This document shows positions 32,422 to 39,207 of a stretch of 39,276 nt of DNA, in pieces (the first letter of the stretch is position 1; every line of letters starts with the position of its first letter). A model generated the notes under the pieces. It saw only the letters and a program-made list of their open reading frames with translations. It had not been told where the DNA came from and did not search any database. Both the position numbers and the translations under genes were made by a program. The stretch is from Flavobacteriales bacterium (GTDB lineage: Bacteria > Bacteroidota > Bacteroidia > Flavobacteriales > UBA7430): the NCBI GenBank assembly GCA_029247585.1, contig JAQWKY010000034.1, positions 1-39,276 of the forward strand, in the 5' to 3' direction.

Positions 32422-34362
32422 ATGAACTCAAATCAAAAGTACTGCAAGAGCCTAACAGCCTACCAGAGATACAAAAGCCATGAAGTGAAAATTGGATCCA
32501 TTGGTATTGGGGGCGGCAATCCCATTCGCTTGCAATCCATGACGACCACAGACACCATGGATACTGATGCTACGGTGGCACAATCCATTCGTATGATTGA
32601 AGCCGGCTGTGAAATAGTTCGTATTACAGCACCCAGTAGAAGAGAGGCAGAAAATCTCAGAAATATAAAACATGAACTCCAAAAAAAGGGATACAACACC
32701 CCTTTGGTAGCAGATATACATTTTACCCCAACAGCCGCTGAAATCGCAGCAAGAATCGTCGAAAAAGTTCGGGTAAATCCGGGTAATTACGCAGACAAAA
32801 AGAAATTTCAGGAGATTGACTATACCGAAGAAAGCTATCAGGAGGAATTAGATCGCATCAACAAACGATTCACACCCTTGGTGAAAATTTGCAAGAAAGA
32901 AGGTACAGCCATGAGAATTGGGACAAATCACGGTTCACTTTCCGATCGAATTTTGAGCCGATACGGAGACACACCTCTTGGGATGGTAGAGTCAGCATTG
33001 GAATTTTTACGTATTTGTAAATCTTTGGGCTACAATCAGGTTGTCATTTCCATGAAAGCCAGCAACCCCCAAGTGATGGTTCAAGCCTACCGCTTACTCA
33101 TCAATAAAATGGAGGCTGAAGAAATGAGCTATCCACTTCACCTTGGTGTTACCGAAGCTGGAGAAGGAGAAGATGGTCGAATTAAATCGGCTGTTGGAAT
33201 CGGAACGCTCCTGGAAGACGGAATCGGAGATACCGTACGAGTTTCACTGACTGAAGAACCTGAATTTGAAATCCCCGTAGCAAAAACTCTAGTAGATCGT
33301 TACTCTAGAAGACTACCACACGATGCAATTCAATCAATCGACACGAACCCCATCAGTCCTTTTGATTATCAAAAAAGACACACACATGAAGTCTTCAACA
33401 TAGGAGGTAAAAATGTACCTATTGTAATCGCTGATCTGCATAAAAAGAATAAAATAAATCCTGCGGGGCTTTTCTCACTGGGTTATCATTATTCTATCCC
33501 CCTTGATAAGTGGAACATTGCCGATATGGCTTGTGATTATGTATTTGCCGGAAACAATACCATTAATTTTGCCATTCCTGGAACATTAGGTGTCATCTAC
33601 AATCACAAAACTTGGGTGAAAAATAAGGGGGAACGTTGTTATCCTTTGATAGACGCAAAAACTTATTTAGACGATTTAGAACTGTCTGCTGATTTGAACT
33701 TCATCCGCACAAGTTTGACTGAGTTAAATGATGAATTCATTTCCAAACTAACAGCAGATGCAAATGCTGTTTTAGTTATTGAAACCAGCAATAAACACGG
33801 AATGGCGGAACAACGTAGACTGGTCATGCAATTGATGAATTCAGACTGCAAAACTCCGGTAATCATCGGCAGAAACTACAAGGAATTGTCCGAAGAAAAA
33901 TTTCAGCTACAAGCCTCAACGGACTTGGGAGCACTCTTACTTGATGGACTTGGTGATGGCACATTTATTCAAGCTGAAAACTGTGGGAGCGATGAAATAA
34001 AAATGCAAACTGCCTTCGGTATTCTCCAAGCAACACGAACACGGATTTCTAAAACAGAATATATTTCATGCCCAAGTTGTGGCCGAACACTGTTTGACTT
34101 ACAAGAAACAACAGCAAAAATACGGTCTAAAACCAGTCATCTGAAAGGTTTGAAAATTGGAATTATGGGTTGTATCGTAAACGGCCCAGGTGAAATGGCT
34201 GATGCCGACTATGGATACGTGGGTACTGGAATTGGTAAGATTACCTTGTACAAAGAAAAAGAAGTCGTTCAGCGAAACATCGCATCCGATGCGGCTGTTG
34301 AGGCTCTTATTGAATTGATAAAAGATCACGGTGACTGGGTAGAACCCAATCATAGCCTATAA
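32422..34362 (+). CDS. ispG: 4-hydroxy-3-methylbut-2-enyl-diphosphate synthase, long insert-containing form (646 aa)
   Basis: RLQSMTTTDTMDTDATVAQSIRMIEAGCEIVRITAPS; ADIHFTPTAAEIAA..VEKVRVNPGNY; CPSCGRTLFDLQE; GCIVNGPGEMADADYGYVG. Confidence 0.96.
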   Translation: MNSNQKYCKSLTAYQRYKSHEVKIGSIGIGGGNPIRLQSMTTTDTMDTDATVAQSIRMIEAGCEIVRITAPSRREAENLRNIKHELQKKGYNTPLVADIHFTPTAAEIAARIVEKVRVNPGNYADKKKFQEIDYTEESYQEELDRINKRFTPLVKICKKEGTAMRIGTNHGSLSDRILSRYGDTPLGMVESALEFLRICKSLGYNQVVISMKASNPQVMVQAYRLLINKMEAEEMSYPLHLGVTEAGEGEDGRIKSAVGIGTLLEDGIGDTVRVSLTEEPEFEIPVAKTLVDRYSRRLPHDAIQSIDTNPISPFDYQKRHTHEVFNIGGKNVPIVIADLHKKNKINPAGLFSLGYHYSIPLDKWNIADMACDYVFAGNNTINFAIPGTLGVIYNHKTWVKNKGERCYPLIDAKTYLDDLELSADLNFIRTSLTELNDEFISKLTADANAVLVIETSNKHGMAEQRRLVMQLMNSDCKTPVIIGRNYKELSEEKFQLQASTDLGALLLDGLGDGTFIQAENCGSDEIKMQTAFGILQATRTRISKTEYISCPSCGRTLFDLQETTAKIRSKTSHLKGLKIGIMGCIVNGPGEMADADYGYVGTGIGKITLYKEKEVVQRNIASDAAVEALIELIKDHGDWVEPNHSL

Positions 34363-34742: not shown

Positions 34743-34750
34743 TATATTTG
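34743..34750 (+). promoter_or_regulatory. Candidate -7 box for the 1294-aa mosaic gene
   Basis: TATATTTG 25 nt upstream of the ATG at 34776. Confidence 0.45.
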
Positions 34751-34775: not shown

Positions 34776-37700
34776 ATGAATAAACTTAAATCGCTTAAGC
34801 CAAGCAACTTCTGTGCATTTTTATTTGCATTGTTTCTAATGCTAAATGGCTTTGTTTCGAACAATATTCAAGCACAAAACAACAGAACCTTTGTAGAAAT
34901 AGGCACTGAGTTTTCATACTCATTTCTCTTAGACACATACCCTTATGGAGTTTCAGATCTTCCAGGTTGGTCGGTAGGCGAGTTCCCTGAATGGGCTAAC
35001 GTGTCCATTATTTCGGAAATTATCGACAAGGAGAATGACCTTGAAAGCGTTTTAAATTATTACTTGAACGTTTCAGGGACTCCTGAAGATCATCACCTAG
35101 GAGAATATTTAATTACAGCAAACCTTATCAATCCTTGGACAGGAGATGTCCTTGAAGTCATTGAAACAATTTTTGAGATCATCGAAACTGAAAATTGCAT
35201 CTGCACTATGGAATACGATCCCGTATGTGGCGCTGATGGAAAAACCTATAGCAATGCTTGTGAAGCAAGCTGCAAAGGTGTGGATGTCATTTCAGAAGGA
35301 ATGTGTGACACAAACTCTACGGGCTGTCAAGTTGATGACAAATTTTATGATTTTGGTGAAAGCTTCAACATCGATTGCAACAGTTGTTTCTGCAGCCAAG
35401 GCCCTGATGGAGTAGGCCTTGTCGCTTGTACAGAAATGGCTTGCATAGAGGGGTGTTACGACGACGAAAAAAACCATTTTGAAGAAGGTGAAAGTTGGAC
35501 TGAGGATGCCTGCACCACTTGTTTCTGTGAAGATGGCGAAATTATATGTGCAACCATGATGTGCATGGAGCCCTACTGTGAAAACCCTATCTACTCTGAC
35601 GACACTTGCTGCCCCACATGTCCTGATGAAGAAGGTTGCTATGACGATTCCGAAACCTACTATGAAAATGGTGAGGAATGGAATACAGATGATTGTACTT
35701 TCTGTTCTTGCGACCAAGGAGAGATCATCTGCGCCGTTATTGACTGTGCCATGCCAAATTGCGACAACCCCATATACAAAGAAGGACAATGCTGCCCTAC
35801 CTGTCCTGACGAAACAAGTTGTTTCGATGAAGCAGGCATTTATTATGACAATGGTGCAGAGTGGAACATAGATGACTGTACGTTCTGCTCGTGTATCGAA
35901 GGAGAGATCATGTGTGCAGTTGCGGCCTGTGAAGAGCCCAACTGTGCGAATCCAATCTATACAGACGGACAATGCTGTCCTACCTGCCCGGATACCTGTG
36001 AAAATAAATTCCAAGACCTTACGAATTACGGTGAACTTTTTGGGGTAACAAACTGTGATGTTGCTGTGGCCGCTCTCACATCATTCGGATTAGACTGCCA
36101 TACGGATCTATCTGTGTATGGTTATTTGCTTGGCATTGAATATGACGAGGAAATTACTCTAGCTGAATTTTGTCCTTGTTCCTGCGAAGACAATACTGGA
36201 AATCCAAATTGCTTGGACGATGCCTACTACAATTACGACCCAACAATAATAGGTACAGAACCATGCATTGACCCATGTGCGGTGGTTGATTGCATGCCCG
36301 GATACAATTGCATTAATGGAGATTGTATTGGCCCTATAGAACCGGGATGTTTCGCTGAAAATGGTCTACTACACCCAGTAGGTTTTGTGTTAGAAAACGA
36401 ATGTACAACGTGTTATTGCGAAGTAAGTTCAGACCCAATGAAGGCCGAATGGATTTGTGAAGAAACGACAACATGTAACGATTGTAATGAAGTAATTTGC
36501 CCTACAGGAACCACCTGCATAATGGGTCAGTGTATTCCCCTTGACACAACAGATTACGGATGCACAAAAGAGGATGAATGGTTTGCATTTGGCACTGAAA
36601 TGGAACAAAGCTGCAACCATTGCATTTGTACACCAGGATTCAACCCTTATGCCGAAGGCTTCTGGGCTTGTACCAAAATGGCTTGTGAAGGTTGTACCGA
36701 TCCTGCTGCAACAAATTACGACCAATATGCAAGTATAGACGACAACTCTTGTGAATACGAATGTCCTAATGTATGTTGCATGGCGATGGACGCAAGTTGC
36801 TTGGCTTGTGGAGCTTGTATGAGTGTTGAAGAATATTGTGAGCTGTACCCTACAACAGCAGGTTGTCCAATCTATGGATGTACTGACCCTACAGCACAAA
36901 ACTACAATCAAAATGCAGTTATCAACGACAACTCCTGCGAGTACGAATGTCCTAATGCTTGTTGCTTGGCAATGATTGCTAGTTGTTTGGCTTGTTCAGA
37001 ATGTATGAGCATAGAAGAGTACTGTCAATTAAATCCTAATACTGAAGGTTGCCCAGTTACTGGGTGTACAGATCCCGAAGCTATTAACTACAATTCGAAT
37101 GCAGAAATTGATGACAATTCCTGCGAATATCCACAAGAACCAAATTGGGACTTTGCCATTACAGGAAACAACCATACCTTGATTTTACCTGAGGGTTTAA
37201 CGAGCGAATTGTTATCTGGAAATCCTCTGGAAGATGGAGATAAAGTGGGCGTATTCTTTGACAATAATGGTGAATTGGTTTGCGCGGGATTCACCACTTG
37301 GGAAGGAGCTACTACAATCATTCCTGCACAAGGAGATGATTTAACCACTGATAATAAAGATGGGTTTAGCAGTGGCGAAATCTTCAAATGGATGATTTGG
37401 GACGTCTCTGAAAATTTAATCTCCAATGCAGAAGGTCGGTTTACTTCCATAGATGAAATACATTTTTCTATCAATGGGATATCAACACTCGCAGAAATTA
37501 CCGCTACGCCTTTAATCCAAGATCAAGAGATTCAATTGAAAGAAGGTTGGAATATGTTCTCTACCTACATGAAGCATGAGAACATGAAAATCAAAACTAT
37601 TTTTCATCAGATTGTGCAACACGTTGTTATAGCCAAAAATAACTACGGACATGCCTATCTGCCAGAGTGGGATTTTGATGGTATTGACAACATGATACCA

Positions 37701-38660
37701 GGACATGCTTATCAAACAAAATTAACAGCTGACAATACACTTCACATTGAGGGTGAATACACAAAACCAGAAAACCACCCAATTACACTTACTGAAGGAT
37801 GGAACATGATAGGTTATCTAAGAACTGAAGACGCTTCAACGATTGATGTATTCGAAGGTATCAATGACTTAGTTATTGTGAAAAATAACATTGGTATGGC
37901 TTACCTACCGGAATTCAACTTTGATGGTATTGGCATGATGACTGCTGGACAAGGGTATCAAGTAAAAGTCCTTTCAGAGCAAGTTTTAAAATACACTTCC
38001 GAAGTATACGAATACAAACGAAGACCAACAGGGCTAAACAAAACCTTGAGACATTTCGATCAAGCCGTTAATACGGGCTCCAACATGAGCTTGGTTCTGC
38101 CTGAAGATGCATGGGGCAATAAACCTTTGGAATTCGATGAAGTAGCTGTTTACGACAACAAAGGCCTATTGGTTGGTGCCATGCCGTATCAGAATGGCAA
38201 TATGGTGATGCCTATCTACGGTGATGATAATCTTAGCACCACAAAAGATGGTCTATACAAACACGAGGACTTTCAAATGGTTCTTTGGTCGGCAAAAACC
38301 GGATCGAAAACGGATATTTCGGTAAAATGGAAAGAGACGACTTCAGGCTTCCAAAAAGATGACATTGCATATGCCTCTGAACTAGACTTCGTCAATGAGC
38401 TCAAGAAACTGCACTCCGTAAACTTGTTCCCTAATCCTACAAATAATCAAACCGAATTACAGGCTGTTTTGACCCAAGAAGATAAACTTGAGATTTCCAT
38501 CTATAATCTTATTGGTAAAAAGGTATTCAAGTCCGTAAATACTTACCAAAAAGGACCTATTCATCAAATTCTTGAGATCGCATATCTTCCTGCCGGTTCG
38601 TATATCATACAACTAGAAACAACGACTGAACTCGTTAATAAAAGTTTAATCGTCAAGTAA
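34776..38660 (+). CDS. Secreted Cys-rich mosaic protein: Kazal, VWC-like repeats, ShK-like module, GCTDP repeats, duplicated C-terminal modules, T9SS type A sorting domain
   Basis: Signal peptide ...[15 protein letters not shown]; Kazal [26 protein letters not shown]; three x59-aa units ending CCPTCPD; GCTDPxAxNYxxxAxxxDNSCEY x3; C-term [35 protein letters not shown]...[12 protein letters not shown]...KSLIVK. Confidence 0.9.
35196..35306 (+). other. Kazal-type serine protease inhibitor domain (sub-feature)
   Basis: C-x1-C-x7-C-x10-C-x3-C-x10-C with [14 protein letters not shown] core. Confidence 0.9.
35451..35993 (+). repeat. Three tandem 59-aa VWC/chordin-like repeats, exact 183-bp period
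   Basis: Units at 35451-35627, 35634-35810 and 35817-35993, each (G/S)C(Y/F)D...W..D.CT.C.C..GEI.CA...C..P.C.NPIY...CCPTCPD. Confidence 0.88.
36690..37133 (+). repeat. GCTDP repeats: two full 62-aa units plus a third 24-aa partial unit, exact 186-bp period
   Basis: Unit starts at 36690, 36876 and 37062; [40 protein letters not shown]. Confidence 0.9.
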
Positions 38661-38674
38661 TAGCTCAACAAAAA

Positions 38675-38706
38675 AACGCCACATCTTTTGATGTGGCGTT
38701 TTTTTT
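38675..38706. terminator. Bidirectional hairpin terminator
   Basis: AACGCCACATC-TTTT-GATGTGGCGTT, perfect 11-bp stem flanked by A- and T-tracts, between convergent genes. Confidence 0.92.
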
Positions 38707-38730: not shown

Positions 38731-39207
38731 CTACAGCAATCCCTTATTCAATTTTACAATTTCCTCGTATCCTTTATCCAAAGGGAGCGCCTCTTTAGAG
38801 GCAGCATGAACAGCTAAGGCATCGCAACGTTCATTCTCAGGGTGATTGTTATGCCCTTTTACCCACTCAAACTTGACGTTATGTTTTTTATAAATAAGTA
38901 AAAAACGCCTCCATAAATCGGCATTCTTTTTACCCTTGAATCCCTTTTTCACCCAATTGAAGACCCAGCCTTTTTCAACCGAATCAACCACGTATTTGGA
39001 ATCTGAGGTCACCAAAACCTCTGCGCCATCACTTTTAATGCTCTCTAATGCAACAATAACAGCAAGAAGTTCCATCCTGTTGTTGGTTGTTAAACGAAAA
39101 CCTTGAGCTAATTCTTTGCGATGCTTTCCCGAAATCATGACAATACCATAACCTCCCGGACCTGGATTCCCACTAGCCGCGCCGTCAGTATATATTGATA
39201 TTTTCAT
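38731..39207 (-). CDS. rnhA: Ribonuclease HI
   Basis: ISIYTDGAASGNPGPGGYGIVM; NNRMELLAVIVALESIK; DSKYVVDSVEKGWVFNWVKKGFKGKKNADLWRRF; WVKGHNNHPENERCDALA. Confidence 0.97.
   Translation of the reverse strand: MKISIYTDGAASGNPGPGGYGIVMISGKHRKELAQGFRLTTNNRMELLAVIVALESIKSDGAEVLVTSDSKYVVDSVEKGWVFNWVKKGFKGKKNADLWRRFLLIYKKHNVKFEWVKGHNNHPENERCDALAVHAASKEALPLDKGYEEIVKLNKGLL

Follow-up and report, generated by a model that had tools for sequence, protein, structure and literature searches.

A predicted T9SS cargo combining Kazal and VWC modules in Flavobacteriales, a candidate modular serine-protease inhibitor

The window, a 39,276 nt stretch of DNA, carries an ORF on the plus strand (34776–38660) that encodes a protein of 1294 aa with 94 Cys. 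Between a signal peptide and the tail typical of type IX secretion system (T9SS) cargo, this protein carries a Kazal domain, three VWC domains, other Cys-rich modules and a large C-terminal cassette. With a probability of about 0.5, it is proposed to be a T9SS-displayed, modular serine-protease inhibitor, with a non-classical Kazal head directed against subtilisin/elastase-like enzymes. The architecture is real, conserved and unusual, its component families are ordinary, and the proposed function is plausible. The features of the gene are as follows.

34743–34750, plus strand: Bacteroidetes-type -7 element TATATTTG (TAnnTTTG), with the start codon 25 bp further on
34776–38660, plus strand: whole mosaic gene, from the ORF list, with orthologues that have identical flanks
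34776–34874, plus strand: signal peptide
34878–35183, plus strand: N-terminal all-beta domain (aa 35–136), from predicted strands, pLDDT about 60–87 within a poor overall model
35196–35306, plus strand: Kazal domain (aa 141–177)
35325–35444, plus strand: pacifastin-like or VWC first-half module (aa 184–223)
35448–35624, plus strand: VWC domain 1 (PF00093, 38.0 bits)
35631–35807, plus strand: VWC domain 2 (PF00093, 46.7 bits)
35814–35990, plus strand: VWC domain 3 (PF00093, 44.4 bits)
35997–36185, plus strand: 6-Cys module, unassigned, found in the three congeners, with weakly similar sequence in a further family of the order
36348–36476, plus strand: second VWC-half-like Cys module (aa 525–567), C-x(n)-CxxCxC...C...C, conserved in four homologues
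36561–36686, plus strand: third pacifastin/VWC-half-like module (aa 596–637) with ACTKMAC, from a pattern scan (PF05375, 18.4 bits, below cut-off)
36690–37124, plus strand: three GCTDPxAxNY repeats and two intervening Cys-rich stretches
37149–37511, plus strand: beta domain A, first copy (aa 792–912), no Pfam match
37521–38015, plus strand: GWN module pair (aa 916–1080), no Pfam, NCBIfam or PDB sequence match
38058–38405, plus strand: beta domain A, second copy (aa 1095–1210), from profile scan and AlphaFold model
38421–38657, plus strand: T9SS type A C-terminal sorting domain (CTD; aa 1216–1294)
38670–38705, plus strand: intrinsic terminator, 16-pair stem plus T run (-24 kcal/mol, z -7.8)

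The gene lies between a long-form ispG (32422–34362) and rnhA (38731–39207, minus strand), both names being read from sequence. Two congeners (G001 and G002) carry orthologues at the same locus, in the order ispG-X-rnhA-purN-fabF (named in the same way), which are 67–76% identical and keep the architecture. Comparison with these orthologues gives a dN/dS of 0.14–0.17, at a dS close to saturation; among the aligned Cys, 80 of 83 are conserved, whereas the figure for the other residues is 57%. This degree of constraint argues that the architecture did not arise by chance, and bears out the ORF as a real feature, evidently under purifying selection. The same-locus gene of another genome (G003, L029:1-1035:+) is cut by the contig start; it stops right after the GWN pair, with no second beta domain and no T9SS tail. 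The identical TATATTTG precedes the start codon in both congeneric orthologues; TAnnTTTG occurs only once in the 413 bp upstream gap, and 15 times on the plus strand of the whole window. Given the conserved -7 element and the terminator after the stop codon, the gene is most likely monocistronic, with its own transcript.

The signal peptide, read by eye, has its presumed cleavage site after Ala33, exposing Gln34, and a Gln follows the corresponding site in four orthologues (5/5 homologues), as in the Q-rule of PMC5837995. The sorting tail scored 37.2 bits with PF18962 and 32.3 bits with TIGR04183. Both export signals of the preliminary description were recovered. A Por_Secre_tail at the extreme C terminus together with a Sec signal is the configuration of T9SS type A CTD cargo of Bacteroidota, of which the host genome (1.79 Mb, 97% complete) encodes 34 tails over cut-off, and the protein is probably exported onto the cell surface. 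It differs from such cargo in having no catalytic domain, and in its Kazal and VWC ectodomain.

The Kazal domain was missed by the profile scan of the whole chain and was found once the segment was scanned separately: aa 136–182 exceeded the curated cut-offs of both Pfam Kazal profiles (PF00050, 37.7 bits against 21; PF07648, 35.5 against 22.8), in agreement with the preliminary description. Its best match among solved structures was leech tryptase inhibitor (1an1; E 1.7e-8, ungapped), with which it shares an identical Cys spacing, C-x1-C-x7-C-x10-C-x3-C-x10-C, the short first gap (CxC) being non-classical (MEROPS I1). Another close structural-database match was silk protease inhibitor 2 (4hgu). 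The P2′ Tyr and a PVCG.DG.TY.N.C core are common to the segment, these two inhibitors and CrSPI-1 (3qtl), but here the domain is one module inside a 1294 aa T9SS cargo, and its P1 residue (Met145, loop C-T-M-E-Y) is Lys in leech tryptase inhibitor and Glu/His in CrSPI-1.

About 30 Kazal units, one of them spurious, were collected by pattern from these loci. They keep the scaffold and mostly have Tyr or Trp at P2′; P1 is Met, Ala, Glu, Leu, Gln, Asp or others, never Lys or Arg. Such a pattern suggests a set of inhibitors tuned to different non-trypsin targets. In G001, the second Kazal unit (CTEEYDPVCG) has C/E/E/Y at P3/P1/P1′/P2′, as in domain 2 of CrSPI-1, which has P1 Glu and P2′ Tyr and inhibits subtilisin at nM levels (PMC3082530). 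Silk protease inhibitor 2 inhibits subtilisin as well as proteinase K (PMC4169406). The Kazal targets are predicted to be subtilisin/elastase-like serine proteases, bound by canonical inhibition; they may be external or the cell's own T9SS subtilase, and most likely the protein blocks foreign proteases.

The domain preceding the Kazal (aa 35–136) gave no match in a Pfam profile scan and can be aligned with homologues from G009 and G010. Three modules absent from the preliminary description, at aa 184–223, 525–567 and 596–637, resemble pacifastin or half of a VWC unit. The first scored 31.2 bits with PF05375 as a segment and 25.3 in the whole-chain scan (cut-off 27.9), and 22.8 with PF00093, below the cut-off of 27.6 bits. 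The classical pacifastin motif is C-x(9-12)-CNxCxC-x(2-3)-G-x(3-6)-CTx3C. The CNxCxC and CTxxxC pieces of pacifastin light-chain domain inhibitors are present at aa 201–223, but the first and middle Cys gaps (16 and 11) exceed those of the motif, so the module is called pacifastin-like only, and it may be just the first half of a VWC.

All three full VWC units, described previously as VWC-like, are above the PF00093 cut-off. Each has ten Cys with CxxCxC and CCxxC, motifs that are invariant in 11 units, and the profile retrieves NELL2 (E 1.8e-7), NEL, collagen II and chordin. Tandem 10-Cys VWC units are shared with the animal proteins NELL2, NEL, chordin and the collagen II propeptide, but here they belong to a bacterial protein with a T9SS tail, other partner domains and low overall identity. 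The units cluster by position across the three species (with modest support), suggesting that the triplication probably predates the split of these species. The VWC modules probably serve as spacers or in binding, and a eukaryotic origin is possible.

For the 6-Cys module (aa 407–475), earlier labelled ShK-like, no Pfam family, ShK/ShKT included, was matched at E<=10, and the label is not supported. The GCTDP repeats were located at aa 639, 701 and 763, as had been claimed; no paper on them was found in the open-access literature searched. Two adjacent 62 aa GCTDP units are 71% identical (44/62), both congeners have one copy fewer, and among the three the duplication is specific to the host species. 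Other homologues differ in their inhibitor modules. In G001, the second Kazal occupies the place of the pacifastin-like module, giving two Kazals. Two genomes of another genus (G009 and G010) have, at a different locus, a rearranged protein of 1566–1673 aa with one VWC and three (G009) or four (G010) Kazal units.

VWC was found in 1 of 395 sampled Bacteroidota genomes (the host itself) and in 6 of 396 Flavobacteriales, all from two genera of the host's family, where they make up 6 of 12 genomes. Scanning 84,980 species genomes by pattern returned only five relatives, all Flavobacteriales; such a scan reaches close relatives only and is no proof that other bacteria lack VWC. Searches of plasmids, phages and viral contigs found no VWC. 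Kazal proteins occur in 11 of the 12 genomes of the host's family compared to 11 of 296 across Bacteroidota, and a Kazal domain has been reported in an archaeon (PMC6697440). Kazal is scattered in Bacteroidota, and VWC is the rare part of the architecture. No paper on a T9SS Kazal-VWC protein or a bacterial VWC was found in the open-access literature searched, consistent with the earlier suggestion that the combination may be undescribed.

The preliminary description had also passed over a large cassette, not rich in Cys, at aa ~790–1215, in which two copies of beta domain A flank the GWN pair, ahead of the T9SS tail. Beta domain A has the pattern NHTLILPE...GDxVGVF...GDDxTT...DGF. The GWN module, GWNMIGY...IVKNxxGxAYLPExxFNGIG...GYQ.K, occurs, alone or as a pair, at the C-terminal end of numerous exported proteins or close to it, with 12 matches in the host genome and matches in 20 of 140 sampled Bacteroidota genera. 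Entire or in part, the cassette recurs in many proteins of the host genome and family, including CotH, trypsin, M43 and gingipain-like C25 proteins, and it can be regarded as a generic C-terminal unit common to many exported proteins of these bacteria. No PDB sequence matched it and, the CTD apart, it was not consistently covered by any family of Pfam or NCBIfam. The AlphaFold model of the cassette is confident (pLDDT 90.8), but the Ig-like matches from a whole-model Foldseek search superpose poorly (rmsd >14 A, TM <0.2 on the query), and for this reason no fold is claimed.

As proposed, the protein would be exported by Sec and then cross the outer membrane via the T9SS, judging from its signal peptide and CTD. 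As type A cargo does, it would then be either fixed to the cell surface or released. In the Cys-rich ectodomain, the Kazal head (plus the VWC-half/pacifastin-like modules) would use the standard canonical-loop mechanism to block subtilisin/elastase-like serine proteases outside the cell. Locked by disulfides and resistant to proteases, the three VWC units and the GCTDP repeats would be spacers or take part in binding, and the cassette would link them to the T9SS tail in the way that is standard in this lineage. The analysis establishes the domains, the constraint on Cys, the conservation, the restriction to one family and the signals for single-gene transcription; that the protein is exported, folds, inhibits the named targets and is anchored is predicted from these. 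The inhibitor reading draws on the Kazal scores over cut-off, the leech-type spacing, the P1/P2′ pattern and the likeness of the G001 CTEEY loop to CrSPI-1, on the gain and swapping of inhibitor heads among homologues (G001, G009 and G010), on the frequency of Kazal in the family, on the T9SS tail and signal peptide, and on purifying selection and Cys conservation. Against it, there is one clear inhibitor among about a dozen modules in the host species, the strict pacifastin spacing is not found, and the AlphaFold model of the Cys-rich half is poor (pLDDT 53). Many Kazal-type domains of animal mosaic proteins (agrin and follistatin type) are also non-inhibitory.

If inhibition were absent or incidental, the Kazal, VWC and GCTDP modules could instead be compact, disulfide-stabilised beads of an adhesin or matrix protein that bind particles, polysaccharide or cells. 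This is a tentative alternative, possible though clearly less probable. Most of the chain consists of non-inhibitor Cys-rich or beta modules, VWC modules are binding modules in animal proteins, the VWC profile retrieves NELL2, NEL, collagen II and chordin, the cassette is also carried by unrelated exported proteins such as CotH fusions, and a GWN module terminates a dioxygenase-VWC fusion. A pure bead, however, would not need the P1 variation seen on a conserved scaffold, and the canonical Kazal loops are kept and the heads multiply in homologues. Of the earlier interpretation, secretion as T9SS cargo and the presence of Kazal and VWC modules are supported, and a protease-inhibiting role is plausible given the canonical Kazal loop; 'adhesive', 'host interaction' and ShK received no direct support.

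Another explanation, an unlikely one, is that the inhibitor restrains the cell's own T9SS-exported proteases. There is a precedent in miropin, a serpin of Tannerella believed to curb the harm that secreted proteases do (PMC4404884), and like the protein described here (as predicted) a protease inhibitor of Bacteroidota, but it has a serpin fold and is unrelated in sequence. One subtilase in the host genome ends in a T9SS tail. In other members of the family the same cassette is found on trypsin, M43 and C25 proteases, and the C25 protein has a Kazal of its own. However, the gene is most likely monocistronic and is unlinked to any protease, and C25 and M43 enzymes are not serine proteases and would not be subject to a canonical Kazal block. 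An assembly or binning artefact, with eukaryotic DNA entering the metagenome-assembled genome, might be suspected from the animal-type domains, but is extremely improbable: the gene is a single uninterrupted bacterial ORF whose promoter and terminator are of bacterial type and whose product has a signal peptide and a T9SS tail. It lies between ispG and rnhA, and two congeners assembled independently have it at the same locus, which refutes contamination.

A broader scenario, speculative and doubtful as a whole, is that uncultured, small-genome Flavobacteriales took VWC, and perhaps Kazal, from eukaryotes and built a T9SS-displayed, multi-headed inhibitor coat, its heads duplicated or swapped between species, directed at grazers, at hosts or at bacterial competitors. 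The protein extends full VWC modules, for the most part a topic of work on extracellular proteins of animals, to exported bacterial proteins, and the inhibitor reading suggests a form of bacterial surface inhibitor display other than serpins, ecotin and alpha-2-macroglobulins. Head swapping between close species offers a natural set of variants for probing target specificity, and the shared cassette, present on proteases and many other exported proteins, is a building block of the secretome in Bacteroidota that lacks annotation.

Several other proteins carry parts of the same repertoire. G009 encodes a C25 protease of the gingipain type, in which propeptide, catalytic and Ig-like domains are joined by a Kazal domain and the same cassette (L034:394-5925:-). 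It also encodes a protease of the trypsin family that has this cassette at its C terminus (L035:1415-6250:+). Putatively secreted proteins of 237–322 aa (L045, L046, L047, L053, L054 and L058) form a family with a Kazal-like part, then Cys-rich repeats and one terminal GWN, and are without a T9SS tail; GWN itself might conceivably be an export or anchoring signal. The dioxygenase-VWC fusion (G011, L066:607-1926:+) consists of an intradiol dioxygenase-type domain (PF00775, 85.5 bits) followed by a GCT repeat and single VWC and GWN modules. A protein of >1800 aa (L076:1-5502:+) is made up mostly of GCTDP-type repeats, followed by a GWN module and a T9SS-like tail.
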